A stretch of 42,514 bases of DNA from a virus: positions 1-42,514 of the IMG/VR virus record IMGVR_UViG_3300042898_000735; one strand, given 5' to 3'. The notes under the pieces were generated by a model. It had not been told where the DNA came from, ran no database searches, and saw only the letters and a program-made list of their open reading frames with translations. A program made the translations under genes and the position numbers. This document shows, piece after piece, positions 14,886-42,514 of this stretch. Position 1 is the stretch's first letter; every line of letters begins with the position of its first letter.

Positions 14886-15848
14886 ATGAAAAAATATCAA
14901 GACGGTGGAAAAACCGGAGCTCAACTTAAAAAAGAAGGGATGGCCATGAAGGCTGCCGGTAAAGCTATGAAAGCTAAAGGAGCTGTTATGAAATATGATG
15001 CTAATAAAAGCAAAAGAGAATCATACATGCTTCAAAGCGGTGCTGATGATAGAGCTGGTAATATTACTCAATCTATGAAAACAGGTGGTGCTACTAAAAA
15101 ATACCAAAATGGTGGACCTGTTGAAGCAATGTATAAAGCAATGGGGAAAAAAGAACCATCTTTAAAGAAAACTCTTAAGTATGTAAAAAAGAATGGTTCA
15201 GGATATATTCCTAGTAATAATTCTTCTACACAAAGACCTAATACAGATAGTTATAAAAGTGCAGGAACTAGCATTAAAACTGCTAAAAGACCTAACACTA
15301 AATACCAAGATGGTGGTCGTACAATTAGTGAAAATGCTGCTGCAAGAAAAGTTGCAAAAGGTAAAGGAACAATTAGTAAATCATACCCATCCGGACCAGA
15401 AGAAAAAGGATCATACGTTGGATATAGCAAAGAAGCTAGAAAATCTGACGGTCCTTGGAAATCTATGAAAGATTCTAAACCTGCAAGACCAATTATGAAA
15501 ACAGGTGGTATGGTTAATTCTAATGCAAAAATTGCAGCAGATAAAACTCCTGGTTCTAAAGGTGTTAAGTCTGGAGTTAATCCTAAAGCTGCTGCATCTA
15601 AAGTTGCTAGAGGTAGAGTAGGTGGAACAAGTGCTTCTCCTAAAACTGCAATGCCTAAAATGTCAATGGGTGGAACACGTCCAGGTATGGCTAAAGCAGG
15701 TTCTAAAAAATATCAAACAGGTGGACCTACACCTGAGCAACAAATTGAATCTGGTGCTAGAAAAAATTACATAGCTAATGCAAAAGCAAAACTAATGGGT
15801 GTTGCTGCTGCTGCTAGAAAAAGTTCTGGACGCAAAGGAAAAATCTAA
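14886..15848 (+). CDS. Highly basic xxGG-repeat protein
   Basis: A 320-residue protein dominated by Lys, Ala, Gly and Ser, with little predicted globular structure. The motif recurs as YQDGG, MKTGG, YQNGG, YQDGG, MKTGG, SMGG and YQTGG, often ahead of a basic run. Repeated KAAASKVARGR-like segments and proline-containing linkers separate the motifs. Highly basic, repetitive phage proteins may bind packaged DNA or be ejected with it. It opens a run of seven small basic genes, and the next gene starts within its stop codon. Function is inferred. Confidence 0.7.
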   Translation: MKKYQDGGKTGAQLKKEGMAMKAAGKAMKAKGAVMKYDANKSKRESYMLQSGADDRAGNITQSMKTGGATKKYQNGGPVEAMYKAMGKKEPSLKKTLKYVKKNGSGYIPSNNSSTQRPNTDSYKSAGTSIKTAKRPNTKYQDGGRTISENAAARKVAKGKGTISKSYPSGPEEKGSYVGYSKEARKSDGPWKSMKDSKPARPIMKTGGMVNSNAKIAADKTPGSKGVKSGVNPKAAASKVARGRVGGTSASPKTAMPKMSMGGTRPGMAKAGSKKYQTGGPTPEQQIESGARKNYIANAKAKLMGVAAAARKSSGRKGKI

Positions 15849-16000
15849 TGGCAAAAGAAATGCTAAAAAGAAAAGACGGTAGTTATTCCCAGAGAGGACT
15901 CTGGGATAACATCCGTGCTGCTAAAGGTTCTGGAAAAAAACCTACTGCTGCAATGTTGAAACAAGAGAAGAAGATTAAAGCTTCTACTAAAAAGAAATGA
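15848..16000 (+). CDS. Small basic GLWDNIRA-type phage protein
   Basis: A 50-residue frame, MAKEMLKRKDGSYSQRGLWD and on, with its ATG inside the previous stop (TAATG). The GLWDNIRAAKGSGKKPTAAM segment matches a widespread family of tiny basic phage proteins, with G(L)(W/Y)xNIxA followed by a GSGxKxPT stretch, as I remember it. The C-terminus is polylysine-like. No biochemical role is known to me. The membership and the tight gene overlap make it likely to be real. Confidence 0.65.
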   Translation: MAKEMLKRKDGSYSQRGLWDNIRAAKGSGKKPTAAMLKQEKKIKASTKKK

Positions 16001-16022
16001 TAAGTATATAATATTATATATT

Positions 16023-16208
16023 ATGGACAAAGTATCTAGATTAAAACAAAAAGAAACCAGACTTGTAGGCAAAGGAAATAAAGCTGTAGATGAAGGTAGA
16101 GAGAAAAAAGCTGATAGACTATTAGGTAGAGCAGCTAAAACTCAAAACCGTGTAATAAAGTTAACAGCTAAAAAAGGTGGTGCTGTAAATTCTAAAAAGA
16201 AAAAGTAA
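16023..16208 (+). CDS. Small basic helical protein with xxGG motif
   Basis: A 61-residue protein. The first 45 residues are a charged helix with repeated Lys/Arg/Glu (RLKQKETRLVGKGNKAVDEG, KADRLLGRAAKTQNRVIKLT), followed by KKGGAV and a lysine tail. The core TATATTATG overlaps its start codon, and a TATA-rich stretch lies in the short gap before it. Likely a small DNA- or virion-associated peptide; function not recognised. Confidence 0.6.
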   Translation: MDKVSRLKQKETRLVGKGNKAVDEGREKKADRLLGRAAKTQNRVIKLTAKKGGAVNSKKKK

Positions 16209-16489
16209 TGGCAAAGACACCAGCATGGACACGTAAGGCAGGAAAGAATCCAACAGGAGGTCTTAATGCTACAGGTGTAGCTTCTTATAGAGCTGCTAAT
16301 CCTGGTAGTAAACTTAAGACAGCTGTAACAACTAAACCATCAAAACTTAAACCTGGTAGTGAAGCAGCAGGAAGACGTAAAAGTTTTTGTAGTAGAATGT
16401 CAGGTATGAAGAAAAAACTAACAAGTGCAAAGACTGCTAATGATCCTAACTCAAGGATTAATAAGTCATTAAGAAAATGGAACTGTTAA
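16208..16489 (+). CDS. Small basic DUF6321-like phage protein
   Basis: A 93-residue protein. The elements PAWTRKAGKNPTGGLNATG, RRKSFCSRMSGM and a C-terminal DPNSRINKSLRKWNC match a small-protein family found in many marine and freshwater phages (I recall it as DUF6321; the number should be verified). Two conserved cysteines and the terminal W-x-C are typical. Function is unknown. The ATG overlaps the preceding stop and the gene belongs to the basic cluster, so a virion or packaging-associated role is plausible. Confidence 0.7.
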   Translation: MAKTPAWTRKAGKNPTGGLNATGVASYRAANPGSKLKTAVTTKPSKLKPGSEAAGRRKSFCSRMSGMKKKLTSAKTANDPNSRINKSLRKWNC

Positions 16490-16490
16490 G

Positions 16491-17006
16491 ATGAAAACTA
16501 ATTTACCTAAAAAACAAAACGGAGGTACTAAGAATAGTACTAAGATGACATCTGGTTATTCAACTGATAAAGTAAGGAAAGCCGTAGATCCCTCATACTT
16601 TCTTACTCAAGGTCTTAAGAGTGTAAAGAAGGGAATAAATAAGCAAATTGATAAAACATATAATTCTGCTAAGAAAAAAGTTTTTGATACTATAGGTCCA
16701 CATTTTTTTAAACAAGGTGGTGCTCCTAAGAAAATGCAAATGGGAGGAATGATTGGTATGATGTCCCCTGGAAATTTAGGTAAAGGTAGCTTAAAACCTG
16801 ATACACGTACTGCAGCTCAAAAAGCAGCTGATGCAAAAAAGCAAGCTGAATTTTTAAAGCAAACAAAAAATAAAGCTTATAACGCTTATAAAGATGCAAC
16901 AGATCCTAAAAAAAGAGCCGCTGCACAAAAACAAATGCAACAAGATATTAAATCTGGTAAGATTAAAATTTCTAGAAATGGTGGAGCAATAAAAAGTAAA
17001 AAATAA
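16491..17006 (+). CDS. Basic xxGG-motif protein
   Basis: A 171-residue, very basic protein with four motif copies: QNGGTK near the start, FKQGGA and MQMGGM close together near residue 75, and SRNGGA just before the C-terminal KSKK. Between them is a helical Lys/Ala/Gln stretch (AAQKAADAKKQAEFLKQTKN). No enzyme domain was seen. It resembles its neighbours in composition and motif but not in overall sequence, which suggests that the motif, rather than the protein, is what is conserved. Confidence 0.65.
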   Translation: MKTNLPKKQNGGTKNSTKMTSGYSTDKVRKAVDPSYFLTQGLKSVKKGINKQIDKTYNSAKKKVFDTIGPHFFKQGGAPKKMQMGGMIGMMSPGNLGKGSLKPDTRTAAQKAADAKKQAEFLKQTKNKAYNAYKDATDPKKRAAAQKQMQQDIKSGKIKISRNGGAIKSKK

Positions 17007-17030
17007 TTATTTATATATAACATTATCATT

Positions 17031-17789
17031 ATGAAAAAATGTATGAAGTGTGGTGGGGCTATGAAAAAAATGGCAAAAGGTGGAGAAGCTACAAACAAAC
17101 TAAACAATGCCAAAGGATTTGCTAAACCACAAACAGGTGGTAGTAATACTAAAATGGGATTATATGGTATTCCTAATGCTGGCCCTACAGGAAATAACTT
17201 AAGTGGTACATACTCATATAAAAAAGGTGGTGCTATTGCTAAAGCTAAATTTGGTGCTACTACTCCAGTTAAAACTTCATGTAAAAAAGGAGAAGTAAGA
17301 TCTGCCTCAGGGGGATGTGTATCTGAAAGACCTAAGTTTGCTAAAGGTGGTTCTGCTTTTGGTATGTTATCTGTAAAAGCTGGTGTTGATAAAAACCCTA
17401 AACCAACAGCAGCAGATAGAATTGCAGGAGCTAAAATGGCCAAGAAAAAAATTGGCGGTTCAGTTAAAAAAATGCAAAAGGGAGGAAGTATGTTTGTACC
17501 AACTCCAAAACCAAAAATGACAGTTAATACTAATCCTGTTAAGAAAAGTAAATATACTACAGCTCCTAGAAAAATACCAATGGCTCAAAATGGTGGTAGT
17601 ACTAAACCTGCTGCTAAACCAAAACCTAAATATGTATATGGTGAAGTACCAGGTATTGGTGGACCTGCTGCAGGACAAGCTGCTACTCCAGGAGAAACTA
17701 TCTTAATGGATCAGAAGTTAGCTGCAGAAAGAAAAGCTAAAGCTGCTGCTGCAAAAAGAAAAGCCGAAGCATTAAAAAAAGGTAAGTAA
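17031..17789 (+). CDS. Basic xxGG-motif protein with the densest motif array
   Basis: A 252-residue Lys/Gly/Ala/Pro-rich protein with about eight motif copies: MKCGGA, MAKGGE, PQTGGS, YKKGGA, FAKGGS, KKIGGS, MQKGGS and AQNGGS. The two N-terminal copies are eight to nine residues apart; the others lie 20-40 apart, like beads. Four cysteines occur in short CxxC-like settings (KKCMKCGG, TSCKKGEVRSASGGC). The C-terminus is a Lys/Ala helix. An intrinsically disordered, DNA- or protein-binding virion protein is the best inference. Confidence 0.65.
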   Translation: MKKCMKCGGAMKKMAKGGEATNKLNNAKGFAKPQTGGSNTKMGLYGIPNAGPTGNNLSGTYSYKKGGAIAKAKFGATTPVKTSCKKGEVRSASGGCVSERPKFAKGGSAFGMLSVKAGVDKNPKPTAADRIAGAKMAKKKIGGSVKKMQKGGSMFVPTPKPKMTVNTNPVKKSKYTTAPRKIPMAQNGGSTKPAAKPKPKYVYGEVPGIGGPAAGQAATPGETILMDQKLAAERKAKAAAAKRKAEALKKGK

Positions 17790-17791
17790 TC

Positions 17792-18058
17792 ATGGGATTC
17801 TCAGATGGCAGTAGTTTAGATGGAATTGTTAAATCAATCCGTGAAGACTCTCAATATAAAAAAGGTGGAGCAAAAGCTATGTTAGCAGAAGCTCCTATTA
17901 TGCTGATGAAGAAAGGTGGTTCTACAGATAAGAACTGGATACAGAAAGCAATCAATCCTGCACACAAAGGATTTTGCACTCCAATGACTAAACCTACTTG
18001 TACACCAAAAAGAAAAGCTCTTGCTATTACATTGAAGAAAATAGCTAAAAATAAATAA
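17792..18058 (+). CDS. Small basic protein with xxGG motifs and NPAHKGFCTP tail
   Basis: An 88-residue protein with YKKGGA at about residue 30 and MKKGGS at about 48. The C-terminal half (NWIQKAINPAHKGFCTPMTK, then CTPKRKALAITLKK) matches a motif I remember in many phage small proteins, NPxHKGxCTPMTKxTCTPxRKALA. Thus a widespread phage peptide has the local xxGG motif attached upstream of it. It starts two bases after the previous stop. Function is unknown. Confidence 0.65.
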   Translation: MGFSDGSSLDGIVKSIREDSQYKKGGAKAMLAEAPIMLMKKGGSTDKNWIQKAINPAHKGFCTPMTKPTCTPKRKALAITLKKIAKNK

Positions 18059-18060
18059 TA

Positions 18061-18759: not shown

Positions 18760-18764
18760 AAATA

Positions 18765-23749: not shown

Positions 23750-23756
23750 TTTTTCT

Positions 23757-23770
23757 TATATTATAGATAT
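23757..23770 (+). promoter_or_regulatory. Degenerate copy of the TATATTATAG motif
   Basis: TATATTATAGATAT overlaps the start codon at 23769. The first ten bases are identical to the candidate promoter core. If it is a promoter for this gene the transcript would have almost no leader, so it may serve a different purpose or be chance in AT-rich DNA. Confidence 0.35.
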
Positions 23771-28396: not shown

Positions 28397-31300
28397 ATGG
28401 CAAAAGATCTTCAAAATACATCTAATAACCTTACACAAAGTTTTGTAAAAGGACTTAATAAAGATTCTGATCCTTCTTTTATTCAAGAAGGAATGTGGAC
28501 ACATGCATTAAATGCAGTTAACAATACAGCTGAAGGAGATTTAGGAACTTTATCAAATGAGACTTCAAACTTTTTATGTGCTACAGCAGGAAACACAATG
28601 GCTCCTACTGTAGCTAATAAATATATTATAGGTGCTATTTATTTGTATTCTGATAAATGGGTGATTTTTACTGCGGGTCATGATGCGCAGGGGAAACCTG
28701 TTATGTCAGAAGTTGGCTTATTAGAAGAAGAAAGATGTATCTATAGACCAATTGCGCAAGCTGCTTGTTTAGGGTTTGATAAAAGATATCTTATATCTGG
28801 AGTATCTAAATATAACGCGGATTGTACGTGGCAAGTATATTTTGCAGATGGATTAAATCCTGATAGATTTTTTAATGTTGGTGATCCAAAACTTTGGCCT
28901 CCATATGATGCAGTATGGGCTGGATATGGTATTAATGTAAACTATTATCTATTACCAAATGGTAGTAAAATGTTATGGCCAAGTACAGCATGGATGCAAA
29001 AATGTACACCAGGTAATTGTCAAATATGTTCAGATGATAATAAAGTAGATTGTGATAGTCTTAGATTAGCAAGATTAATGGAGACACCTTGTCTTAATTT
29101 AACACTAGGACAACAAGGTGGTACCTTAGCAAATGGAACTTATTTTGCAGTAATTGCATATAGCATTGAAGGTCAAAAAGTTACTGATTACTTTTCACCT
29201 AGTAATAATCAATTTATTTATTACCCAAATGACTTACAGGGCTCATTAACTTTAGAAGTTCAAGCAGATCGTGCAAACTTTGATGAGTTTATATTAGTTA
29301 TAGTACAAAATATAAACCAAGGAACTGTAGCAAAACAAATAGGTATATACTCTACAGCTACAGAAGTAATAAGTATTGATCAAATAGATGCTGCAAGTAT
29401 TACTGTGCCAATTGAACAAATTCCAATTCAAACTCCTGTATTTGAAAAATCAGATCAAATATCAGAAGTAAATACTTATTTGTTAAGAGTTGGTCCTACA
29501 TCTAGATTTGATTTTAACTATCAACCATTAGCTAATAGAATTAATACTAGATGGTCTGCAGTAGAGTATCCAGCAGACTATTATGTTAATGGTGGTAATA
29601 AAACCAATTACTTAAGAGATGAGGTTTATGCATTTTTTATCCGTTGGGTATATGATACAGGAGATAAAACATCAAGTTATCATATACCAGGAAGAGCACC
29701 TAAAAAATTTATCATTCCTGAGACTGGTGCAGATTTATATGAGACAGATGATTTAAATGTAGCAAATACATTAGCTACTTCTGAACAAGTGTTTGATGTT
29801 TACAATACTGCAAGTCAAGGACCTTATCCTTCAACAATGCCAGGAGCAACACTTAATAGTGCTGGCGAATGGGTATTGGAAGATGGTGGTGTTCTTATTG
29901 CTTCAGGAGAAATGGGTTATTGGGAATCATCTGAATCTTATCCAGATAATAATGCAGAAGTTTGGAATTCAAGTTCACATTGTTGGACGGGTGTTCCTAT
30001 TGATTCGGTAACTGGATTACCTATACCTAGTCCTGCATATGACTTATGTGGTGAAAAGATTAGACATCATAAGTTTCCAGAAAACTTTTTTAATACACCA
30101 AGTAATAACAACTCAACTACTGCTGTTCATTTTAGAACTAATCCTAATCCATCAACAACAGGAGAACAGTACTTCATAAGAAACATGGGTGTGTACTTTG
30201 AGAATATTGTATTACCAAAAGATAATGATGGTAATGATATTCCAGGTATTGTTGGTTATGAGATTTTAAGAGGATCTAGAGAGGGTAACAAGACTATCAT
30301 AGCAAAAGGTATGATCAATAACTTTAGAAGCTATGAGATCAAAGGATCTGCTGCTAAAGGACGTACTGGTTTATATGCTAACTATCCATTTAATACAATT
30401 AATCCTATTGGGCCTAATGCAGGTTTTATGGCTGGAGTAACTGATCCTTATATTAATGTAGACAATCAGTTTATTCCAAAAGATATTACATCATTTCATT
30501 CTCCGGATACTATGTTTAGTACTCCTTATTTATCTACTACAGAATTAAAACTCTATGGTAATTTATCTGGATACTCAACACAACAATTTATTGAGCCCAA
30601 TAGACATCCTAAGTTTAAATTACTTGCAAACTATTCTTTAATTCCAATTTATATAACTGGATTTACTGAAGCCATAGTATCTATGTTAGGTAAAAGAACA
30701 TTAAATCAACCTGACTTAGGACCTTATAGTAAATACTTTCAAACACCAATTGCATTTGCTAGTGGTACATCAGGACCAATTGATTATTCTTTAGCACAGG
30801 ATGCAGCTCTTAATGGACCTATACTACCAAATATTTCAAGTGCAACAGGAGCTTATAATGGTGTTTTACAAGATTATTATCCTAACACAGCTTTAAATGA
30901 TGCTGTCATAGCTTTAACACAAGGTTATGAAAGTACAGCTTATGCACAAGCTAACAATAATGTAATTAATGCAGTAAATACAGTTGCTAATGCAGCTGGT
31001 ATGCCGCAATTACTATTAGGTGGTTCAATTGAAATGCCTGCTTATGCTTACCTACCTTTGCCATTAAGAATAGCACAAGGTTTACAGCAAGCAATATTTT
31101 ATTTTTCAGAAGGTGCAGATGTAGCATTACAATTAATTTATGCAATCTTACCATATAGACAGTATGCTTTGCAGTCTATAGCTTATGGTTTCTATAGCAA
31201 TATGAGTAGGAATGCTTTACTAGATGGTAATAATCCTTTTTTGTTTAGATTTAATATTGAAGATAGTTTTTACATAAGAGATAACATACAGAATGTATCT

Positions 31301-33865
31301 AGATATCAAGTTAATAATGCTTTCTTTCAATCTTATAGTATTAACAATTTAAAAAGATCTGATACAGCTGTTGTAAGAACTAAGTCTGGACCCTATTATA
31401 ACGGTTTATTTCCTCAGGGTGTAAATACTGGACCTAGTTTCTTAAATACGGATAAGTCATTAGTTACTCTGGGAACAGTTGTACAAGCAAACGACTTTGG
31501 TCAAGGATCATTTTTTGCACAGGGAGCAAGACCAAATTTTACTAATATAGATACACCATTTAGTTTACCAATTGGTAGTCACTATGGTGCATTAAAAGGC
31601 AGAGTAAAAAATCAATACGGCCAATTAGATTCAATCAAACAAATTATAATTACACCATGTGAACAAACAATACCAAAAACTGCTTCAGTTGGTCCATATT
31701 TTTGTAATGGTGAAGAGTATAAATTAAATGTAATAGTAAGAACTCCTATTTTATTTAATGGGGATACTTATATTAATAGGTATACTGAGAAGAATACAAT
31801 GTTCTATTACTATGATTGGTTGTATGGTCTACCTGATGGATTTGAGTATAATTACTATATCCATCAAATGATTCCAACAGCAAGGTTTAATGTTAATAGT
31901 ATTAGATATGACATCTCAAATATGTCAGAAGCATTTACTCCTGGTTCTCCACAGATTCCAGGTACAGGTGCTAAACCTAGTCAATTTTATAACTTAGATT
32001 ATTATGTTAATGGTAGTAGAAAATATGACTATGTTGATAATCAACCTGAACCAAATGATGATTCATACCCAGGATTTTTTGGCGTAAAAGAATCTAAGTT
32101 CTATTTAGCTAATTCAGCTGTAAGAGATTTCTTTGTAGAAAGTGATGTGTTAATTGATTTTAGAGAGAACTCAGATATTATAGGTGAGAAACATTATGAT
32201 CCTTATAGATATACTGATTACCAGTCATTCTTTGATATGGATCCTAATATAATTACAAGAGGTAACATATACAGATATGATTATTCTTTAAGTGTGTCTA
32301 AGTTATATAACCAGTATTTCTCTTCAGGTAATTTGCAAAATAGATACTATGATCCAAAGGTAGCTTCTTCATGTTATACTTATTATCCGGATAAAATTAT
32401 TTACTCACTACCGCAACAGCAAGAAGCATTAAAAGATAGTTGGTTTATATATTTAGTAAACAACTATGTTAACTTTAAGTCACAGATTAGTGGAGTCAAG
32501 TCTATTAACAAAAGTGGTGTGTTCATTACATTTAAAAATGATAGTCCATTAATGTTCCAAGGATTAGATCAATTACAAACTGAATTAGGAACTAAACTTA
32601 CAATTGGAGATGGTGGATTATTCTCTCAACCAGGACAATCTGTTACTAATGCTGATAAATCATATGAATATGGTTCTTCACAGAATAGATTATCTGTAGT
32701 TAATACACCTGCAGGAATTTATTATGTATCTCAAAATCAAGGCAAGATATTTAACTATTCTCAAGGATTAAAAGAGATATCTCAAATTGGTTTAAAATGG
32801 TGGTTTACATTATTCTTACCATATAAACTTACTGATGATTTTCCAGATTATCCTTACAGTGATAATCCTGTAATTGGTATTGGAATTCAATCTGTATATG
32901 ATAATCAAAATACTATACTTTACTTTAGTAAAAAAGATTACCAACTTAAAGCTGAGTATTCAGGTAGAGTAGCTTATGTTGATCTTATTACTTCTGGTAA
33001 AAGTAAAGGTCTTGGTGATTACTTTACTTTAGATGGTACAGGTCAGTACCAGTTAGGTGATTCATTATTATTTGATGATGCATCATGGACAGTAAGTTAT
33101 GATCCAAAAAATAACTTTTGGTTAAGTTTTCATGACTGGCATCCAGATTATGTGATACCAACTAAAACTACATTCTTAACTTCTAAGACAAATACACTTT
33201 GGAAACATAATTATTTATGTGATAATTTTTGTAACTACTATGGAACTAATTATCCATTTGAAATTGAAATACCTGTTATAACTGGTCAAACTGTAACTAC
33301 TTTAAAATCATTAGATTACATTTTAGAATGTTATAGAAGACAACCAAATAACTGTGTGGACCAACACCAAGTATTAGATTTTAATTTTGATCATGCAGTA
33401 ATATATAATTCAGAACAAGTATCTGGTTATTTAAACTTAAACATATTTCCTAAAAATAATATTACTCTAAGTCTTCAGTATCCTAAACTTAATACAAACA
33501 ATCTATCATCATATGATGTTTTATTCTCTAAAGAAGAAAATAAATATAGATTGAATCAGTTTTGGGATATCACTAAAGATAGAGCAGAGTTTCCTATTGG
33601 ATCAGATTATCCTCCAACAGGACCTTTAATTCCGGGAACTACTATATTAAATGGTAACTATGCATCTGAGAATACTTGGATCACATCTCCTGATGGATAT
33701 AATAGAATACTTAATCCTGCTAATCTTAATTATGATAAACCGCAACTTCAAAGAAAGAAGTTTAGACATTACTTAAACTTTATTAATCTTAGAAGAGATA
33801 TCTCTGGAGACATTAATATGATTCTTAAATTAGCAAATACTAAAAATCAAATTTCTTTAAGATAA
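28397..33865 (+). CDS. Very large tail protein, muzzle/nozzle-like
   Basis: An 1822-residue protein directly after the ring proteins. The N-terminus (SFVKGLNKDSDPSFIQEGMW, followed by HALNAVNNTAEGDLGTLSNE) matches a conserved start of crAss-like tail proteins. It also resembles the G-N-D-P...N pattern at the start of P22 gp10 and T7 gp12 nozzle proteins. The rest is beta-rich with many aromatic residues and no obvious enzyme motif, fitting large propeller or barrel domains around the channel. Its stop overlaps the next ATG. The assignment as the terminal tail assembly (muzzle) is an inference from position and N-terminus. Confidence 0.6.
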   Translation: MAKDLQNTSNNLTQSFVKGLNKDSDPSFIQEGMWTHALNAVNNTAEGDLGTLSNETSNFLCATAGNTMAPTVANKYIIGAIYLYSDKWVIFTAGHDAQGKPVMSEVGLLEEERCIYRPIAQAACLGFDKRYLISGVSKYNADCTWQVYFADGLNPDRFFNVGDPKLWPPYDAVWAGYGINVNYYLLPNGSKMLWPSTAWMQKCTPGNCQICSDDNKVDCDSLRLARLMETPCLNLTLGQQGGTLANGTYFAVIAYSIEGQKVTDYFSPSNNQFIYYPNDLQGSLTLEVQADRANFDEFILVIVQNINQGTVAKQIGIYSTATEVISIDQIDAASITVPIEQIPIQTPVFEKSDQISEVNTYLLRVGPTSRFDFNYQPLANRINTRWSAVEYPADYYVNGGNKTNYLRDEVYAFFIRWVYDTGDKTSSYHIPGRAPKKFIIPETGADLYETDDLNVANTLATSEQVFDVYNTASQGPYPSTMPGATLNSAGEWVLEDGGVLIASGEMGYWESSESYPDNNAEVWNSSSHCWTGVPIDSVTGLPIPSPAYDLCGEKIRHHKFPENFFNTPSNNNSTTAVHFRTNPNPSTTGEQYFIRNMGVYFENIVLPKDNDGNDIPGIVGYEILRGSREGNKTIIAKGMINNFRSYEIKGSAAKGRTGLYANYPFNTINPIGPNAGFMAGVTDPYINVDNQFIPKDITSFHSPDTMFSTPYLSTTELKLYGNLSGYSTQQFIEPNRHPKFKLLANYSLIPIYITGFTEAIVSMLGKRTLNQPDLGPYSKYFQTPIAFASGTSGPIDYSLAQDAALNGPILPNISSATGAYNGVLQDYYPNTALNDAVIALTQGYESTAYAQANNNVINAVNTVANAAGMPQLLLGGSIEMPAYAYLPLPLRIAQGLQQAIFYFSEGADVALQLIYAILPYRQYALQSIAYGFYSNMSRNALLDGNNPFLFRFNIEDSFYIRDNIQNVSRYQVNNAFFQSYSINNLKRSDTAVVRTKSGPYYNGLFPQGVNTGPSFLNTDKSLVTLGTVVQANDFGQGSFFAQGARPNFTNIDTPFSLPIGSHYGALKGRVKNQYGQLDSIKQIIITPCEQTIPKTASVGPYFCNGEEYKLNVIVRTPILFNGDTYINRYTEKNTMFYYYDWLYGLPDGFEYNYYIHQMIPTARFNVNSIRYDISNMSEAFTPGSPQIPGTGAKPSQFYNLDYYVNGSRKYDYVDNQPEPNDDSYPGFFGVKESKFYLANSAVRDFFVESDVLIDFRENSDIIGEKHYDPYRYTDYQSFFDMDPNIITRGNIYRYDYSLSVSKLYNQYFSSGNLQNRYYDPKVASSCYTYYPDKIIYSLPQQQEALKDSWFIYLVNNYVNFKSQISGVKSINKSGVFITFKNDSPLMFQGLDQLQTELGTKLTIGDGGLFSQPGQSVTNADKSYEYGSSQNRLSVVNTPAGIYYVSQNQGKIFNYSQGLKEISQIGLKWWFTLFLPYKLTDDFPDYPYSDNPVIGIGIQSVYDNQNTILYFSKKDYQLKAEYSGRVAYVDLITSGKSKGLGDYFTLDGTGQYQLGDSLLFDDASWTVSYDPKNNFWLSFHDWHPDYVIPTKTTFLTSKTNTLWKHNYLCDNFCNYYGTNYPFEIEIPVITGQTVTTLKSLDYILECYRRQPNNCVDQHQVLDFNFDHAVIYNSEQVSGYLNLNIFPKNNITLSLQYPKLNTNNLSSYDVLFSKEENKYRLNQFWDITKDRAEFPIGSDYPPTGPLIPGTTILNGNYASENTWITSPDGYNRILNPANLNYDKPQLQRKKFRHYLNFINLRRDISGDINMILKLANTKNQISLR

Positions 33866-35763
33866 TGAAATACAAAGTTGGAACATCAAAAATCCAAGGT
33901 AAAGGATTGATAGTTAAGAAACCTATTAAGAAGGGAGAAAGAATTGGTACTGCTCACATTAATGGTAAACCTACATCTGTTGTAGGTAAATATCATAATC
34001 ATGAAGATGAGCCAACAGCTATTAATGTTAAAGAAGGTAACAAAAGATATTTAATTGCAGATAGAGATCTAATGCCTGGAGATGAGATTACAACTAACTA
34101 TAGATTACAACCTGAGTTAGAACAACCAGAAAATTTTAAAAAAGGTGGAGCAGTTAGATTACCTAAGATGCCTAAACCATCTAAGAAAGGTAAATTAGCA
34201 AAAGGATATAGTAGAAGTCTTGATGCTACTAATAGATTGTTTACTGAACATGTACTATTTGAAAAACCTAAATCTAAAAAGAATAAAGTATTTGATCCTA
34301 ATGCAAATTTTCAAGAAGGCGGTTTTATTGAAACAGAACTTACTGATGAAGAAATACAGGGATATAGAGATGGTGGTTATGTTGTAGAAGAAATAGATGA
34401 ACCACAATATCAAGACGGTGGAGTATATACTCACCCTGGAAGACCGGGTGCTAAATACTTAAAAAGACAAGATGGTTGGTATGTTCAATCTCCTGGTAAA
34501 GAAGGTTATGTAAAAGTTCAAGATCCTCAAGGTAATAGAACAAAAGAATTAAATAAATCTGCTGTATTAACTGATGAGGTTTATGCACTTAGCCCTACTC
34601 AATCAAATTATATAAATGATTCTGTTCCTTTAAATAGAGCAGTTAGTGAATCAACTGATACACAAGCATCTAGAAATCTTACAAAAAGTATTGAAGCAAA
34701 AAAAGTAGATGAAAGCAATCGTGCCATAGTACAGAGAGCAAATATGCGTGATGGCTATAGACAAAATATTGAGAACAATCCTAAGTTATCTGTTGAAACA
34801 AAACAAAAAATGCTTTCAGAGTTTAACAATTTAAGTCCTGTTGATCAAAATAAATCAGCTTATCTTGCATTAAGTAAAACAGTTAATCCAGATCAAGTAA
34901 AACCTTTAACTGCACCACTGGGTGCTAGTGCATGGGATATTGCAACTAATCCATTGGATGCCTTTAAAGCATCTATTGTATATGGAGATTATACACAACT
35001 GCCTAGAAATTATAATGATGCTAAAATGGCTGGAGTAAACATGACTCCTAGAAGTTACCAAGAAAGATTTGCTCTTGATCAAGATGGTCAAGGTGGAAAA
35101 AATATAGTTGGTAATTTTTTAAACCAGACTGTAAATCCATTAGATATGGGTGATAAGGTGTATAAATATGCAAGAAAAGGAGATTACTTAAATGCAGGTT
35201 TAAACTTAGCAAGATTTACTCCAATGTTATACACAGCTCCTGGAGCTAAAGTATTAGATTATTTAGATGATGTAGGTTCAGCTGTAGGAACTGTAATGGG
35301 TAAATCACCATTAGCAAGATTTACAAATAGTTCTAGTAGTCCTTTTATTCAAGCTGTTGGTAAATCACTTAATGCAGATAATTTACTTACAACCAAAGGC
35401 ATAACTTCTGGACTTTTAAATTTACCAAATGTTGCTAATACAGGTTTGCAGTATTATCAAACTGGTAAAAATAAAGATTTAAAAAACTTTGCAGGAGAAG
35501 CATTAAAATCAGCAGCATCATTAGCTCCTTTAACGGGATCAAAAGTATTATCTCATATTAATCCTTATAGGACTGCTTATTTTGGTACTAAAGCAGGATT
35601 TGATTTAATGCATAAACCAGAAAAAGAAGATGCTGCATTAAGCATACCATCTCTACTAAGAACATTTAATAGAAAAGAAGGAGGAACTGTAGATGCTGAA
35701 CTAACAGATGCTGAAATACAAGACCTTATAGATCAAGGATACATCATTGAAGAGCTGGACTAA
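33865..35763 (+). CDS. SET-like domain fused to an xxGG-motif virion protein
   Basis: A 632-residue protein. Residues 1-80 read as a compact SET domain: SKIQGKGLIV (8-17), KYHNHEDEPTA (42-52, corresponding to the NHxxxPN motif) and DLMPGDEITTNYR (68-80, corresponding to the GEExxxxY motif). Then come NFKKGGAV, a basic stretch, and FQEGGFIETELTDEEIQGYR near residue 148. The same ELTDxEIQ module recurs at the C-terminus (VDAELTDAEIQDLIDQGYII). The middle is helical. As the first of three giant xxGG proteins it is probably packaged or ejected. Lysine methyltransferase activity is a prediction from three motifs. Confidence 0.6.
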   Translation: MKYKVGTSKIQGKGLIVKKPIKKGERIGTAHINGKPTSVVGKYHNHEDEPTAINVKEGNKRYLIADRDLMPGDEITTNYRLQPELEQPENFKKGGAVRLPKMPKPSKKGKLAKGYSRSLDATNRLFTEHVLFEKPKSKKNKVFDPNANFQEGGFIETELTDEEIQGYRDGGYVVEEIDEPQYQDGGVYTHPGRPGAKYLKRQDGWYVQSPGKEGYVKVQDPQGNRTKELNKSAVLTDEVYALSPTQSNYINDSVPLNRAVSESTDTQASRNLTKSIEAKKVDESNRAIVQRANMRDGYRQNIENNPKLSVETKQKMLSEFNNLSPVDQNKSAYLALSKTVNPDQVKPLTAPLGASAWDIATNPLDAFKASIVYGDYTQLPRNYNDAKMAGVNMTPRSYQERFALDQDGQGGKNIVGNFLNQTVNPLDMGDKVYKYARKGDYLNAGLNLARFTPMLYTAPGAKVLDYLDDVGSAVGTVMGKSPLARFTNSSSSPFIQAVGKSLNADNLLTTKGITSGLLNLPNVANTGLQYYQTGKNKDLKNFAGEALKSAASLAPLTGSKVLSHINPYRTAYFGTKAGFDLMHKPEKEDAALSIPSLLRTFNRKEGGTVDAELTDAEIQDLIDQGYIIEELD

Positions 35764-35821: not shown

Positions 35822-38800
35822 ATGAAAAAGAAAGTAAGAATTTATAAGTCTCCAACAGGTAAAGGAGAGTTTATAAACAAAACTGCGCAATTTCTTCAAA
35901 GAGCACAAATGGGTGGGATGCCGGACCCTGCTACTATGGGATATCCTGGAGCAGCAGAAGAAGAAGTATCTTCAGAAGATCAAATAGCACAAAGCATAAT
36001 TTCAGATATTCAGAATGGTAGACCAAAGGAAGAAACTGTTGTAAAATTAGTTAATAGTTTTAACCAAGATCCAATGACTGCGGATCAATACTATGAGCAG
36101 ATTTTTAATGCATTGAAATCTCAACAACAAGAACTAGAAGATGAAGAAGTTTCTGGAGTTGAAGAAGAAAATACAGATCAACAAACTCAAGTAGAAGATG
36201 AAGTAGCTTCACAAGAAATAGAAGATGAATGGATAGAAAATAAAGGAACAGCTACTGCTAATCAAATGTTGGCAGAAGATGATGAGTCAATTGCTGCAGA
36301 AGATTTAAGAGAAGCTGAATCTCAGTTAGTTATGCAGGATGGTGGTATGATGCCAACAGATTTTGATATGTCTATGTATGAAAATAGATATCCTGTACAG
36401 TATGCTGGTTTAAGTGCATTTCTACCTCAAACAATTTTAGATGATAATGCTTCATTTGCTCAACCTATGTCAGGTGAATTAGATGAAGAATTTAAAAAGG
36501 GTGGTGCATATAAAAAAGCTAAATCAAAATATGTTAAAACTATTTTAGGTTTAAATAAAAAAGTTGATGGTGGACCACAAGCAGTAGAAGAAAGTGCTGA
36601 TCCAACCGGAGCTAATGTAAGAAACAATAGACTTAAACAATTTGTTTCTACATTAAAAACAAATAGTGATTATGCTCAAGCTAAAGAACAAGCTGAACAA
36701 GAGTTTGAACAATTAGCACTACAGCAACAGCAAATGCAGATGCAGATGCAACAGCAAATGCAGATGCCTCCTAATCCATATATGCAAAATGGTGGAGAGC
36801 AAGATATTTATAATGGTCAGGATTATGAAAATCCAATGCACCATTTACAATTATATTCTCATGCAGCTCAAGATGTATTTGGTGATCCAATGAATCAAAC
36901 AACTCAAGCTCAGAATGGAATTCAAGTTGGAAAGTTAACTCCAGAAGAATTAGAACAAGCACGTAACTATGGTATTATTGATCCTGGATTTAGTCCTGAT
37001 GGAACAAGAAGTCAAATAAAAAACCGTCAAAGACAAGACTGGACTGATAAACAAATGCAAACTGGGAACGCTAGTTATGAGGATATGCAAAAAGGTATTT
37101 ATCCAAACAGATTTAATCCTGCATCTAATCAAACCGGAGACCCTGCCATTTATAATGGATTAACTCAAGCTGACTTAACTAGAATGAGTGGTGGATATGG
37201 TATAGATGCTGCTCATGGAAGTACTTTTAATCCTGGAAGAAATATGGGTAATATTCGTATGCCAAAAGGTATGATGGGTATGCCTCCTATTACTAAAATG
37301 GATGTCAGAAGATCTGGATTATTTGGTAGACCTAAAGAATACTCAGTAGAATTTGGACAAAGCCCTATGCCTGGAATGCCAGGTGCTGGTGTTGGTTTCT
37401 ATGGTTATGGAGCAACAGCTACACCACCAAAAAAGAAATCTCCAGGAAGAATCTTTACTGAAGAAGCTACTAAACAAGTTAACAAACAAGCAACAACAGA
37501 AGTAGCAGCTGCTACACCTGCATCAGAAGCTGCACAAAAATCTGCAGAAGGAACATCTCAAACTGCGGCATCATCAGGTACTACAAGTAGTAATCTTGTT
37601 GAAGCAGGTGCTTATCCTGAAACAGTAGCAGAAACTCCTGTTACAACTCCAACAGCAGCTAATAAACTCTTTACTTTACCAGGTAAATCTGGATACTACT
37701 ATAGAAAAAGAGCGGATGGTTCTTATGTTAAATTTAAAGGTGATCCTAGTAAACATACATCATCTACTCAACCTGTAAAAACAAATGGTAAAGCTGTATA
37801 CATTACACCTAAAGATCCAACATATAAATACTTAAATACTAAAGCTAAATTTGCTAATGAGTATGATCCAAATGCTGTAGCTGCTGCAGTTACACCAAAG
37901 GTTTCAAAAGAGGCAGAAGACAAAAAATTAGTTAATGCAATATTAAAAAAACCAAGTAGTCAGCGTACACCTGAAGAAAGAGATTTTGTAAGAAAATGGA
38001 AACAAACAAAACTTAATGCAGGTATTAATAGTTTTCCTGAATTAGTAAGTAATGTTTATGAATCATTACCTGATGTTCCGGGTTGGATGGATCCTTCACA
38101 ATATGGATCTTTAGAAGCACAACGCAATGCAAGACTTAAAGCTCAAGGTAAACCAATACCACCAAGTAAATCTAGTGGAGCAAGTTTGTATACTGATTCT
38201 GGATATGAAGAAGGAGGAGCTATTATGGATCCTCAAATGGATCCTTATGGTAACCTTCAACAGTTTGTATATGGTGGTAATGATATGTCTATTCCTGAAT
38301 TAAACCAGGAAAGCATTGACTATATGAATTCTAAAGATACTACAGATGGTTACTTCCAATATGGAGGACTAACTACATATGAAGATAAAGGAGAAGTTAA
38401 GTCTGATCCTTATGAAGACTATAGAAAACAAGTTGGTGACAAATTAAATATGTCATTAAGAGATGACTTGTCTGCAAAAGAATTATTTGAGATGGGTAAT
38501 AAAGCTGGAATTAGTTTTGGTCAAAAACCTGCAGCTCCAGCAGCTCAACAACAAATGCAGTATCCTTCTTATGATCCATTTGCTGTTATGAATATGATGG
38601 CTAATGCTGGAAGAGGTGGTAGAGGATCTGGAATGTTTCCTGCAAACTTAGCTGGGTCACCACAGTACTATGGTAAAATTAAAAAGGGTCCTTACAATCC
38701 ATTAACAGGCGCTGGAGTAAGTGGTGGTTTTGGTCCTAATACAAATCTTAAGTCTATTAATGTAACTAAGACAGGTATGTTTGGTAGACCTAAGAAATAT

Positions 38801-41002
38801 ACCATGACATATGGTAATCCAGAAATGGACCCAAGAAAACAAAACTTAATTACTTTACCGGGTGAAGGAGTAGAAGGTTATGCTGGTCAAGCATCACCAT
38901 CAGGAAATCAAGATAGACTTTCTAATACTCAAGGTTTAAAACTAGGTACTAGAGCTAAAATAGCTGCTAAAGAATTATTTGGACGTAGAGGTCAAGATGA
39001 TCCTTATGCACCACAACAAGAATCAATGAATCAAGAACCTGCAGATAATACAGGAGGAGGGGAAGATCAAGATGAAGTAAAAAGATTTCAAGCACAGCAA
39101 GAAGCTAGAGGTTTGGTATATGATGATATTGAGAATAAGTGGATTCCAAAAGTTACTGGCCAATCAGCTAAAGATGCAGGTAGTGATTTGATGGCTCAAT
39201 CAAGAGCTGATATGGAAATTGCAACTTCTGGAAAATTACCTGTACCATCTGGACAAGGTGAACTTGATAAGTTAAGAGCGCAAAGACAATCAGTTCTTGA
39301 AGGAGAGTTAGCTCAGTCTGCACAAGATAAAGAAAGAGCTGCTATGGGTCCAGTAGGATTCCAACAAGATAATGCTTTGTCTCCTGGACAAATGGAGATT
39401 GATCAAGATATTCAAGCTAGACAACAAGAACTTGATCAAGAAGCTGCAAGTCAAAGAGACCTACAAGCATTAGAAGCATCAGATGCTCAAGATAGAGAAA
39501 TGGGTATTGGTATATATGATCCTAGTTATACTCAAAACTTTGGTAAAGCTGGTTTAGAAGAATTACAGAAAGAAGAGCAAAGAATTGATGGACTAATGAG
39601 AGAGTCTGATTTACAAGATCAGCAAGATGGTATTGGTATATACGATCCTAGTTTTAGTAAAGATTTTGGTAAGGCTGGACTAGATGCTTTACTTCAAGAT
39701 AGAAAACAAAAAGATGCTGCTGCTGCAAAAATTGCTGCTGCAAGAGCTGCTGCCGCTAAAAGAAATGTTGTTACTCCACAAGGTAGAGGTTCTATGACAG
39801 GTCCTTCTAATAATCAAGCTGCTACTATTCCTGCTAAAAATACTCAGCAAAATAAAGATCTTGATGTAGACACTGCACAAAACATGTCTGCTGAAGAAAG
39901 AGCACAATTAAAAAGAGCACAAGACTATATAAATTCTCCTCAGAGACAAGCTGAAATAAAAAGACAAAAAGCACAAATAGAAAAACAAAAACTTGCTCAA
40001 ATGAATGAGCAAGAAAAAACTGTATATAATACAAAAGATAAGGTTAATAAAGCAATGGATCAGGTTTATAAAACTGAATATGATAAACCATTGAATGCTT
40101 TACTTGACAAACGCCTGCGTGTAGAGAAAGCAATTGAGCAAAGAAAAGATTTGACTCCTGCACAAAAGAAACAAAAGAGACAAGAAGCACTAGATAAATT
40201 CTATATTGAACAACAACAGTTAGAAGAAAAATATGCTAAGATAAAACAAGAATATCAAGATGCAGCTAGTTTTGAACCTGAACGTAGTAAAGGCAGTTCA
40301 ACTGTAAAGAAGTTTAATGTTAAGGTACCTAAGTATTTTAGTAATGGTGGAATGTTACCTAAAGCTGTGTATGGTAATAACCCTGTAACATATACTGATA
40401 ATCCAGCATTAGCAGGAATGACAGATGTTCAAATGATTACTCTTAACCCTGGTATTCAAGGTTTAAGCGGTGGTATTAATTGGGGACAACTATCTGCAAC
40501 AAATACTGTTACTCAGGAAAATGGTGTTGGTCAACCAAATACCTATGGTGCTGCTGCTCCTACTGCCCCAACTCAACCTGAGGGAATGATAGTTGGAAAA
40601 GAAAGTCAGCAAGTAGAAAAAGAATATGCTCCACCAGCAGGAGATGTTTCAATTGATGTTAAGAACAAAAGAATGGGTGAGTTTGACCCAGAAGCTTGGC
40701 TGAATACAGGTAATGCTGCTATCAGAGGTTTAACTAAATTTATTGGAAATGATGAGGACACTAATATGTATGATGATTACAACTCAGACAATATGTTTGG
40801 AGCAAGTAATACCAAAGATAGAGGTGACTATGTTCAGTATGGTCAAAGATTAGGTATGTTCCGTGATCCTGAAGAAGGTCAAAAAAGAACTGGTAGAACA
40901 AAACAATATGGTGGTGCCATGAATGTAGATGATGAAATCTATATGACAGATGAAGAAATTGAAGATTTCTTAGCAAATGGTGGATCACTTGAATATTTAT
41001 AA
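35822..41002 (+). CDS. Giant xxGG-motif cargo-like protein
   Basis: A 1726-residue, Gln/Glu/Lys/Ala-rich protein with long disordered or helical stretches and about eleven xxGG motifs (for example MQDGGM, FKKGGA, MQNGGE, YEEGGA, FQYGGL, FSNGGM, LANGGS). It carries two internal repeats: a GLFGRPKEY/GMFGRPKKY pair near residues 490 and 980, and a GIGIYDPS(Y/F)xxxFGKAGL pair near 1230 and 1270. A segment near residue 618 (LPGKSGYYYRKRADGSYVKF) resembles one in the preceding protein. The C-terminus IYMTDEEIEDFLANGGSLEY is a variant of the ELTDxEIQ module. Large, late-encoded and tail-proximal, it is a candidate ejected protein. Confidence 0.6.
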   Translation: MKKKVRIYKSPTGKGEFINKTAQFLQRAQMGGMPDPATMGYPGAAEEEVSSEDQIAQSIISDIQNGRPKEETVVKLVNSFNQDPMTADQYYEQIFNALKSQQQELEDEEVSGVEEENTDQQTQVEDEVASQEIEDEWIENKGTATANQMLAEDDESIAAEDLREAESQLVMQDGGMMPTDFDMSMYENRYPVQYAGLSAFLPQTILDDNASFAQPMSGELDEEFKKGGAYKKAKSKYVKTILGLNKKVDGGPQAVEESADPTGANVRNNRLKQFVSTLKTNSDYAQAKEQAEQEFEQLALQQQQMQMQMQQQMQMPPNPYMQNGGEQDIYNGQDYENPMHHLQLYSHAAQDVFGDPMNQTTQAQNGIQVGKLTPEELEQARNYGIIDPGFSPDGTRSQIKNRQRQDWTDKQMQTGNASYEDMQKGIYPNRFNPASNQTGDPAIYNGLTQADLTRMSGGYGIDAAHGSTFNPGRNMGNIRMPKGMMGMPPITKMDVRRSGLFGRPKEYSVEFGQSPMPGMPGAGVGFYGYGATATPPKKKSPGRIFTEEATKQVNKQATTEVAAATPASEAAQKSAEGTSQTAASSGTTSSNLVEAGAYPETVAETPVTTPTAANKLFTLPGKSGYYYRKRADGSYVKFKGDPSKHTSSTQPVKTNGKAVYITPKDPTYKYLNTKAKFANEYDPNAVAAAVTPKVSKEAEDKKLVNAILKKPSSQRTPEERDFVRKWKQTKLNAGINSFPELVSNVYESLPDVPGWMDPSQYGSLEAQRNARLKAQGKPIPPSKSSGASLYTDSGYEEGGAIMDPQMDPYGNLQQFVYGGNDMSIPELNQESIDYMNSKDTTDGYFQYGGLTTYEDKGEVKSDPYEDYRKQVGDKLNMSLRDDLSAKELFEMGNKAGISFGQKPAAPAAQQQMQYPSYDPFAVMNMMANAGRGGRGSGMFPANLAGSPQYYGKIKKGPYNPLTGAGVSGGFGPNTNLKSINVTKTGMFGRPKKYTMTYGNPEMDPRKQNLITLPGEGVEGYAGQASPSGNQDRLSNTQGLKLGTRAKIAAKELFGRRGQDDPYAPQQESMNQEPADNTGGGEDQDEVKRFQAQQEARGLVYDDIENKWIPKVTGQSAKDAGSDLMAQSRADMEIATSGKLPVPSGQGELDKLRAQRQSVLEGELAQSAQDKERAAMGPVGFQQDNALSPGQMEIDQDIQARQQELDQEAASQRDLQALEASDAQDREMGIGIYDPSYTQNFGKAGLEELQKEEQRIDGLMRESDLQDQQDGIGIYDPSFSKDFGKAGLDALLQDRKQKDAAAAKIAAARAAAAKRNVVTPQGRGSMTGPSNNQAATIPAKNTQQNKDLDVDTAQNMSAEERAQLKRAQDYINSPQRQAEIKRQKAQIEKQKLAQMNEQEKTVYNTKDKVNKAMDQVYKTEYDKPLNALLDKRLRVEKAIEQRKDLTPAQKKQKRQEALDKFYIEQQQLEEKYAKIKQEYQDAASFEPERSKGSSTVKKFNVKVPKYFSNGGMLPKAVYGNNPVTYTDNPALAGMTDVQMITLNPGIQGLSGGINWGQLSATNTVTQENGVGQPNTYGAAAPTAPTQPEGMIVGKESQQVEKEYAPPAGDVSIDVKNKRMGEFDPEAWLNTGNAAIRGLTKFIGNDEDTNMYDDYNSDNMFGASNTKDRGDYVQYGQRLGMFRDPEEGQKRTGRTKQYGGAMNVDDEIYMTDEEIEDFLANGGSLEYL
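37289..38815 (+). repeat. Diverged duplicate of a (G/S)xFGRPKxY segment
   Basis: About 20 codons at 37289-37350 (KMDVRRSGLFGRPKEYSVEF) and at 38756-38815 (INVTKTGMFGRPKKYTMTYG) encode the same pattern. Both are followed by a proline- and glycine-rich stretch. They are about 1.47 kb apart within one gene, consistent with an old domain duplication. Confidence 0.6.
39503..39691 (+). repeat. 126-bp direct repeat inside the giant gene
   Basis: Units at 39503-39565 and 39629-39691 encode GIGIYDPS(Y/F)xxxFGKAGLxxL, with much of the DNA identical (for example GGTATTGGTATATA). Each is followed by a charged helix, so the repeat period is 42 residues. Confidence 0.75.
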
Positions 41003-41011
41003 CTTTACAAC

Positions 41012-42514
41012 ATGTTAAGAAAAGTAAAAATTACAGGAGTACCCAAAGCAAGAACAGGATATCAAGTTCGTGGTTCATTAGCTAATGATGTCCCAGCAAT
41101 GGGTGGAGCAGATTATAATGCTTACATAGGTCAACCAAACTTTAAAGTAAATAAAACTTTAACAGCTGTTCCTAGAGAAGCTGCTAACTTAGAAGCTGAA
41201 GGTGGGGAAACTGTTATGGGTAATATTGATGGAAGCAATATTCCATCTTTCTATAATATTAAAGGCCCTAGACATAGTAGTGGTGGTGTTCCTTTAAATT
41301 TACCTGATGATAGTTTTATCTTTAGTGATACTAAAGCTATGAAGATAAATGATCCATCTTTACTTAAGATGTTTAACATGGCAGTTAAGAAAGGTGGTTA
41401 TACTCCAGCAGAGATGTCTAACAAATTTGATATAAATAGATATAGACAAATTCTTCAAGATCCTAACTCAGATAAGATTGCTAGAAAAACAGCTGAGATG
41501 ATGATCAAGAATTATACTATGAAACTTGGTGCATTAGCTTTGGCTCAGGAATCTAAAAAAGCTTTTCCACAAGGAGTGCCAATGATTGCTAAACCTTACA
41601 TGGAATCTGTAGGTATCAAAGAAGAAGACATCTTACCACAAAAAGAAGAAGAACAAGCTGAATCTTCAATGCAAGAACAAATGGAGGCTCCAGATTATGA
41701 AGCACAGGAGAATCCAGAAACAATGCCTAACGGAGAGCCAATTGCTCAACCTGAGGCAATAGGTCCACCACAAGAAGAAATGTCACCAGAGATGATGCAA
41801 CAAGCTCCTATGGCTATGTATGGTATGAGTTTAGGTGGCTTTGATAATGAGTATGCATTTGGTGGTTACTATGCAACTGGTGGTGCTCAAAATATTACTC
41901 CTTATGAGAAAGCTAAAACAAAACAAGGTAATATAACTCCTACAGGTACTAGAAATGAATTTAGTAACCGTAAACAAGATGTTGATACCTTTTTAGCACA
42001 ATGGGAACCAATTATTCCTGGAGTATCTAAAATGTCTGAAGGAAATGCTCAAAAAGCTATTTATGAATGGTCATTAAAAAATAATCCTGAAGGCATTCAA
42101 AAAATGTGGGAAACACATGGTCTTACTGCTAAGGGAATGAAAAGTGCTAAATTAAAAAAATTAAGTAAGGATGGATCAGGTAAGTTTACTGCCGAAGAAT
42201 TAAAAGATCCTAAAATATTAGAAGCACTTCAAGAAGCATATGTAGATAATTTATTTGGAGTAAGACAATTAGATCCTACTAAACCAGAACCAAAGAAAGA
42301 TTCTGAAAAAAGTGTTGATATTATTCCTCCACCTAAAAAGAAATGTGAGTGTATTGATCCTGAAACAAATGAAAAAACAGTATTTGATATTGAATCAGAT
42401 GAAGAATGTATGTGTGGAGAAGATGAGCCAGGTAGTGTGTCAGAAGATGTGGCAGCAGCTCCTCCAAAAGGTCCTGCACCATTCTGGTTACAAGATACTA
42501 TAAATACTATGGGT
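41012..42514 (+). CDS. Conserved cargo-like/structural protein, 3' end missing
   Basis: The frame starts at ATG 41012 (MLRKVKITGVPKARTGYQVR) and stays open for 501 codons to the window edge. The N-terminal region (VPREAANLEAEGGETVMGNI, HSSGGVPLNLPDDSFIFSDT, KKGGYTPAEMSNKFDINRYR) matches a protein I recall as widespread in Bacteroidota phages. A Met/Gln/Pro/Glu-rich linker follows, then FGGYYATGGA motifs, a helical region, and a cysteine module (KKKCECIDPETNEK ... CMCGED). It is the third consecutive large protein with xxGG motifs, and is likely a virion or ejected component. Confidence 0.65.
   Translation, partial: MLRKVKITGVPKARTGYQVRGSLANDVPAMGGADYNAYIGQPNFKVNKTLTAVPREAANLEAEGGETVMGNIDGSNIPSFYNIKGPRHSSGGVPLNLPDDSFIFSDTKAMKINDPSLLKMFNMAVKKGGYTPAEMSNKFDINRYRQILQDPNSDKIARKTAEMMIKNYTMKLGALALAQESKKAFPQGVPMIAKPYMESVGIKEEDILPQKEEEQAESSMQEQMEAPDYEAQENPETMPNGEPIAQPEAIGPPQEEMSPEMMQQAPMAMYGMSLGGFDNEYAFGGYYATGGAQNITPYEKAKTKQGNITPTGTRNEFSNRKQDVDTFLAQWEPIIPGVSKMSEGNAQKAIYEWSLKNNPEGIQKMWETHGLTAKGMKSAKLKKLSKDGSGKFTAEELKDPKILEALQEAYVDNLFGVRQLDPTKPEPKKDSEKSVDIIPPPKKKCECIDPETNEKTVFDIESDEECMCGEDEPGSVSEDVAAAPPKGPAPFWLQDTINTMG

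Follow-up and report, generated by a model that had tools for sequence, protein, structure and literature searches.

A Y/F/M-x-x-Gly-Gly motif that may mark joints between modules of probable virion proteins in crassvirus-like phages

The window analysed here is a stretch of 42,514 nucleotides from an uncultured phage (positions 1-42,514 of IMG/VR record IMGVR_UViG_3300042898_000735). Several of its proteins carry a short peptide containing Gly-Gly, and the locus raises the question of whether this recurrence exceeds chance and what the peptide does. A first-pass annotation had counted about 40 such motifs in at least nine proteins, and had proposed three possible roles for them: cleavage after GG, docking, or tagging for packaging/ejection.

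The window TerL and portal match PHROG families in profile searches. The portal matches 129 phage records, every one below 60% identity, and many of them are crass-like (gut crassviruses, Cellulophaga and Flavobacterium phages). The relative G005 (about 115 kb) encodes the crassvirus muzzle, ring 1 and ring 2 families (PF25731, PF24228, PF25702). Given these families in G005 and the crass-type portal and TerL of the window itself, the window is a crassvirus-like fragment (Crassvirales or a near relative). Capsid searches recovered at least 597 related stretches in environmental metagenomes, where the group is thus abundant. Elsewhere in the window, an endolysin-like protein at 1827-2288 (phrog_894, E-value = 2.7e-39) is preceded by small membrane-type genes that overlap at 982-1067, possibly forming a lysis cassette with it. 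Large Cys-rich fibre-like proteins occupy 21857-25433; the ORFs 21857-23749 and 23682-25433 share 68 bases, and the real start of the latter, which opens with GTG, probably lies further in.

Occurrence of the motif in the window and its relatives

The literal pattern of the first-pass annotation occurs 20 times in the window proteins, and a relaxed form, [YFMIK]xxGG, 36 times. For each protein we compared the observed number of [YFMI]xxGG with that in shuffled copies of the same composition. The small proteins concerned are listed below, with observed against expected numbers in brackets.

2452..2745, + strand: 97-aa basic protein with SYETGGS and a C-terminal MKKGGSVKRK (2 against 0.21, p 0.014)
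14886..15848, + strand: 320-aa very basic protein with 8 GG, 7 of them motif-type (7 against 0.72, p 0.001)
16023..16208, + strand: 61-aa basic protein with a single C-terminal AKKGGAVNSKKKK (1 GG against 0.54, excess not significant)
16208..16489, + strand: stand-alone DUF6321 protein (MAKTPAWTRKAGKNPTGGL...; PF19846, E-value = 1.2e-19)
16491..17006, + strand: 171-aa basic protein with PKKQNGG, FFKQGGA, KMQMGGM and SRNGGAIKSKK (2 against 0.24, p 0.02)
17031..17789, + strand: 252-aa basic protein with 10 GG (5 against 0.63, p 0.001)
17792..18058, + strand: 88-aa protein with QYKKGGA, then LMKKGG fused to a WIQKAINPAHKG...CTP module (2 against 0.10)
17915..17920, + strand: Gly-Gly joint of the 88-aa protein (GG at residue 42), directly before STDKNWIQKAINP

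Motifs of the 320-aa protein include KKYQDGG, SMKTGGA, KKYQNGGP, IMKTGGMVNSNAK and KKYQTGGP, and the GGs of the 252-aa protein are partly tandem-spaced (MKCGGAMKKMAKGG ... KKMQKGGSMF). The small carriers contain 24% K+R and 9% G, and some of their motifs lie 8-12 residues apart. Three large carriers follow the muzzle gene, in an order kept in relatives.

28397..33865, + strand: muzzle protein homologue (the relative's protein is PF25731 crAss_MUZ, E-value = 4.5e-18), used as context and as a negative control, its GG logo lacking the motif pattern
33865..35763, + strand: 632-aa protein with an N-terminal SET domain and motif sites at residues 94, 152, 170, 185 and 606 (4 against 0.59)
34144..34149, + strand: GG94 (FKKGG) of the 632-aa protein, conserved at 0.7-0.8 against a mean identity of 0.34
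35822..41002, + strand: 1726-aa giant protein, predicted cargo, with 17 GG (7 against 1.99, p 0.002)
41012..42514, + strand: 501 aa, truncated by the window end, a cargo C1-like candidate from a structure model and BFVD matches (3 against 0.57)

Over the eight enriched proteins, p ranges from 0.001 to 0.02, and significant excess is confined to proteins that the first-pass annotation had named. Its statement that TerL, the capsid protein, the rings and the fibres lack the motif agrees with the shuffle test, which gave no excess in TerL, portal, scaffold, rings, fibres or muzzle, save for one literal match in the capsid protein (residue 224, p 0.07). The 61-aa protein has a single AKKGGA site and no excess; in the 501-aa protein only the GGs after GG31, GG64 and GG91 are motif-like. 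Plain GG pairs are hardly enriched in the window proteins, so that the signal is the context and not GG itself. The Y/F/M-x-x-GG motif is real, and it is more specific and less frequent than first thought.

The motif is confined to two main gene groups, which also bear it in six relatives of 109-123 kb. With ORFs called mechanically, it was also found in the cassettes of 45 relatives between the gene for a 338-aa protein and that for ring protein 1, and, at 80 loci flanking the muzzle gene, in proteins encoded downstream of that gene. Gene content varies freely in the small-gene cassettes, while capsids are 91-98% identical. The proposed class of motif-bearing, cargo-like proteins thus extends over these relatives, not over phage proteins generally: Pelagibacter phage HTVC028P and Methylophilales phage MEP401, small marine phages that are both in culture, have no excess of the motif, and we rejected it as a general small-phage trait. 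Our literature searches found neither a GG motif nor a processing protease in crass-like phages.

Across relatives the consensus reads hydrophobic (-6), P (-5), K/Q (-4), Y/F/M (-3), K/Q/A (-2), any residue, G, G, any residue, V/I/T (+2). The logo of the small proteins (532 distinct GG contexts) reads hydrophobic (-6), P (-5), K (-4), M/Y/F (-3), K/Q (-2), K/T (-1), GG, S/A/T/M (+1), V/T (+2), K (+3), and the specificity lies mainly N-terminal of GG. The logos of the 632-aa and 1726-aa families closely resemble it, whereas the muzzle logo does not. With the small basic proteins as training set, a matrix told the sites of these two families from random positions with an AUC of 0.77-0.79; the value was 0.67 for the 501-aa family and 0.46-0.64 for muzzle, TerL, portal, capsid, 338-aa and scaffold proteins. 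The outcome was alike when either of the other two protein classes served for training. Motif GGs are often conserved at 0.8-1.0 where mean identity is 0.28-0.34, whereas non-motif GGs of the same protein are not conserved. Codons at GG are near background and 168 distinct 9-mers occur, so that selection acts on the protein; with codon use so close to background, we rejected a DNA-level recombination signal.

The large carriers and crassvirus cargo proteins

The SET domain (33865-34105; PF00856, E-value = 1.1e-5) of the 632-aa protein, which is itself a predicted cargo protein, is replaced in some relatives by an unrelated ITMQGV-type domain ahead of the same KKGG joint. Among 36 homologues of this protein, the only invariant columns are Met1 and both Gly of FKKGG. 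In the 1726-aa protein, conserved motif sites lie at residues 31, 250, 818, 1697 and 1720, and the motif-type GGs are mostly conserved at 0.6-1.0 against 0.1-0.6 for the others. Its C-terminal GG...MTDEEIEDFLANGGSLEYL unit is common to the 632-aa family: the unit GG-x-LTDEEIxxYxxxGGYIVE (40895-41002 and 34318-34430 in the window) occurs 43 times in the 632-aa family, 30 times in the 1726-aa family, and not at all in the other families tested.

The structure model of the 501-aa protein is ordered over residues ~45-215 (pLDDT about 90) and disordered over the motif region 226-320 (below 50). GG31, GG64, GG91 and the residues around each of them are strongly conserved, and the latter two GGs fall within the predicted folded domain. 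The best matches of this model in a BFVD search were an Fpv3 (Flavobacterium phage) protein and the 895-aa structural protein of phi4:1 (E-value about 1e-3, low TM-scores); the PDB fold search gave no match, nor did the protein match phages. Likewise, tblastn of the 320-aa, 252-aa and 88-aa proteins against 50,697 phages gave no match, probably owing to fast divergence and the low-complexity filter.

In PhicrAss001 the gene of gp45 (cargo protein C1) directly follows the muzzle gene; gp45 was detected by mass spectrometry, cryo-EM resolved parts of it in the capsid and tail, and it is treated as one extended chain (PMC10172136). The large carriers of the window occupy this same gene position. 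PhicrAss001 gp45 has 21 overlapping GG pairs, some in motif form (NIFDTGG, NAFAEGG, SMFAYGG), and its resolved segments lie between GG sites: 214-245 between GG209 and GG263, and 425-552 between about GG427 and GG562. Canonical sites of gp45 are GG20, GG209, GG263 and GG562, and those of phi17:2 gp041 are GG84, GG327, GG518 and GG551. Twelve gp45 homologues are modestly enriched in [YFMI]xxGG (p < 0.05 in five). An hhalign comparison of the 501-aa family with the portal-bound domain of gp45 (425-552) is weak by sequence (E-value = 0.0039, probability 8.5%). Another one (E-value = 1.2e-4) is with phi17:2 gp041, over the C-terminal region of the longer homologues found in relatives. This gp041 is a homologue of the phi4:1 895-aa protein, its structural annotation resting on similarity to phi4:1 gp40; by eye, it joins an N-terminal domain like that of the 632-aa protein and a domain like that of the 501-aa protein in one chain, with motif sites between them. 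The motif also occurs in a csAssE-Sib protein. Homology of the 501-aa protein to gp45 and to the phi4:1 structural protein is suggestive, and by homology and position the carriers of the window are probably in its virion. The window group differs from PhicrAss001 in splitting the cargo region over three proteins with longer disordered parts, and in a cassette of small basic carriers, which is not seen at that place in PhicrAss001. Neither a protease nor cleavage nor a GG motif comes up in the main text of PMC10172136. The gp45 homologue of Bacteroides phage DAC15 (L218:1925-4423) contains an IHIK...KFTxYCGGxVT module twice, with GG sites flanking the copies.

Position of the motif at module borders

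Internal copies of four unrelated modules start directly after the motif in 55 of 56 cases: WIQKA in 18 of 18 (including four copies whose GG fell inside the search pattern), DUF6321 in 15 of 16, RAVxxSC in 6 of 6, and the NAKV-type in 16 of 16. These counts take in related loci, so that the copies are not independent, although the four families are. In 29 stand-alone copies of the modules the motif is absent and a Met stands at about the same place. Thus, internal KMKSGG-STPAWTRKEGK corresponds to stand-alone MAKTPAWTRSEGK, and internal MKKGG-STDKKWIQKAINP to stand-alone MATKKDKKWIQKAINP, the free form, in relatives, of the module in the 88-aa protein. The modularity that the first-pass annotation had read from this protein is borne out and strengthened, internal copies sitting behind GG in all 18 cases. 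DUF6321 likewise stands alone in the window but lies internally, behind a joint, in other phages, and the GG of the window protein is part of the module itself; in the 320-aa protein the NAKV-type module follows KTGG.

A blind test over all motif sites gave a weaker result (66/116, against 27/79 at random positions). Among homologues of the large proteins, similarity ends at motif GGs 1.8-4.0 times more than expected, against 1.6-1.8 times at other GGs and 0.7-1.2 times at other Gly pairs (GP/PG, NG/GS), and it is at motif GGs that entire domains, among them the window's SET domain, are exchanged or inserted. These observations suggest that the motif marks joints between modules, in proteins that the virion probably contains.

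Processing, docking or recombination at the joint

Some of the same modules occur in T4-like phages behind a different joint. DUF6321 is found in 519 phage records, mostly of cyanophages and many T4-like. We split 122 distinct copies by the presence of T4-like genes in the flank. Next to such genes, no copy follows GG and 63 of 65 follow Glu, in most cases as Glu-Gly or Glu-Ala where the module begins; in the other copies the joint is GG in 18, Met in 21, Glu in 12 and of another kind in six, the last being a point against a processing joint. The DACYxKVK module behaves similarly (23 E, 6 other and 0 GG in T4-like phages; 4 GG, 3 E, 1 other and 1 Met outside them). The T4-like loci are depleted in Y/F/M-xx-GG itself, with 6 found where 18 were expected, and loci with GG joints are ten-fold enriched in it. 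The change of joint with lineage for one and the same module favours a processing joint.

The T4 head protease gp21 prefers LxE/IxE, and only 34 of 75 E joints fit a strict [LI]xE. This enzyme removes propeptides and cuts core proteins (PMC5694885), and SPN3US gp245 cuts head proteins after Glu (AXE; PMC10052503). The Glu joints are consistent with cutting by gp21 without proving it. T4-like cyanophages also encode proteins of 271-849 aa that resemble chains of small basic modules with acidic linkers ending in Glu-Gly/Ala between them (L308:5425-6240, L309:2957-4240, L313:694-3243), possibly processed head polyproteins.

Among the three original readings, cleavage at a joint appears best supported. 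Judged from these sequence comparisons, a processing joint cut after Gly-Gly is the most likely explanation of the motif, at about even odds, the cutting itself being what we infer. A protease would recognise the residues before the joint (hydrophobic at -6, Y/F/M at -3, K/Q/A at -2, then GG), and its cut would free the domains of the large cargo proteins as well as small basic modules whose starts are close to native, in parallel with the action of the T4 prohead protease on head proteins after Glu. As in T4, one short site would be common to unlike internal proteins, segments or propeptides would be lost in head maturation, and some of the same small modules stand behind Glu joints in T4-like phages; unlike in T4, the joint is Gly-Gly, does not fit [LI]xE, and recurs many times inside a protein, where T4 has a single N-terminal copy. 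Adenovirus and African swine fever virus precursors, core proteins and polyproteins of which some are small and basic, are cut at GG-X sites with a hydrophobic residue at P4. In our motif the hydrophobic peak at -3 before the first G would be P5 if the cut follows GG, one position further.

A candidate enzyme would be the putative zincin metallopeptidase domain of a predicted giant cargo protein encoded downstream. A YHE[AS]WH-type zincin motif, seen at motif level and with no profile match, occurs in this protein in all six relatives, and PhicrAss001 gp47 has a YHEAFH zincin-type motif. In G005 the protein has 3508 aa (77028-87554; loci L121/L122). No Pfam peptidase was among the matches listed around TerL, portal and capsid of G005, where a diverged one could escape, and the structural region yielded no dedicated endopeptidase family. 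PF18894 metallopeptidase, present in eight of ten relatives, is a weaker candidate, since in G005 it is a 392-aa gene in the opposite-strand arm, far from the head genes. For an Ulp1/adenain-type protease, PF02902 (Ulp1/C48) had no match in ten relatives, and none in the control genomes either. Zincin-like domains have been suggested as processing enzymes of polyvalent proteins (PMC5512222). These large proteins of virions or transfer systems consist of unrelated domains that can be exchanged, and our carriers resemble them. The virion RNA polymerase of N4 contains a zincin-like domain and yet is packaged uncut (PMC5512222), which counts against cutting. The window group has a SET domain among its exchanged parts, and most of its motif sites are in proteins other than the one with the zincin; a joint motif is not described for polyvalent proteins in the sections of PMC5512222 drawn on here. 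Also against cutting, sites 8-12 residues apart would give tiny fragments, and the gp45 model of residues 425-552 (PMC10172136) runs through an atypical AFGG at 425-428, so that this site is not cut.

The motif could instead be a short linear docking peptide for a common prohead partner (scaffold, capsid inner face or portal), with many copies giving avidity. A degenerate motif common to otherwise unrelated, cargo-like proteins, in many copies each and within predicted disordered regions, is what docking would give. Yet the motif is missing where these modules stand alone within the same cassette, and a tag need neither abut every module start nor become a Glu joint in T4-like phages. The ends of the small proteins are not enriched in the motif either, which also led us to reject an N- or C-terminal targeting tag. 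On balance we find docking rather unlikely as the whole explanation, but the T4 capsid-targeting sequence combines docking and cutting (PMC5694885), and both may hold.

If no enzyme or partner recognised the motif, it might be a mere flexible hinge or a shuffling point for recombination, and Gly-Gly is indeed flexible and stands at module borders where homology ends. The aromatic residue or Met at -3, Q/K at -2 and V/T at +2 would then be superfluous, yet they recur in three unrelated protein classes; GP/PG and NG/GS pairs have little or no excess of breaks, and codon use carries no DNA-level signal. A hinge or shuffling point is accordingly improbable. An origin by chance or slippage in Gly/Lys-rich, low-complexity proteins, for which the composition and close spacing of the small carriers might speak, is highly improbable: a frequency equal to that of composition-preserving shuffles, which the first-pass annotation had named as the outcome that would count against the motif, was not found, the shuffles falling short of the observed counts. 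Besides, a matrix from one class recognises the sites of the others and not the controls, motif GGs are conserved and other GGs are not, and T4-like genes adjoining the same module are depleted in the motif.

Extending the processing reading, we propose tentatively, and judge somewhat more likely wrong than right, that crassvirus-like phages, together with several further environmental lineages of phages, mature their heads by a separate system, and that a Gly-Gly-specific protease in it, perhaps the giant-protein zincin, would cut cargo polyproteins and small basic proteins at Y/F/M-K/Q-x-GG, parallel to the Glu system of T4-like phages and with some modules common to both. Crassviruses are among the most abundant viruses of the human gut, and the GG joints bear on the unsettled question of how their cargo proteins are packed and ejected. 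Even if left uncut, the joints give a rule for dividing the carrier proteins into domains. If they are cut, what reads in gp45 as one extended chain may in truth be several separate peptides, many hypothetical small basic phage genes would encode packaged modules, and available mass spectra of virions could be searched directly for the site.
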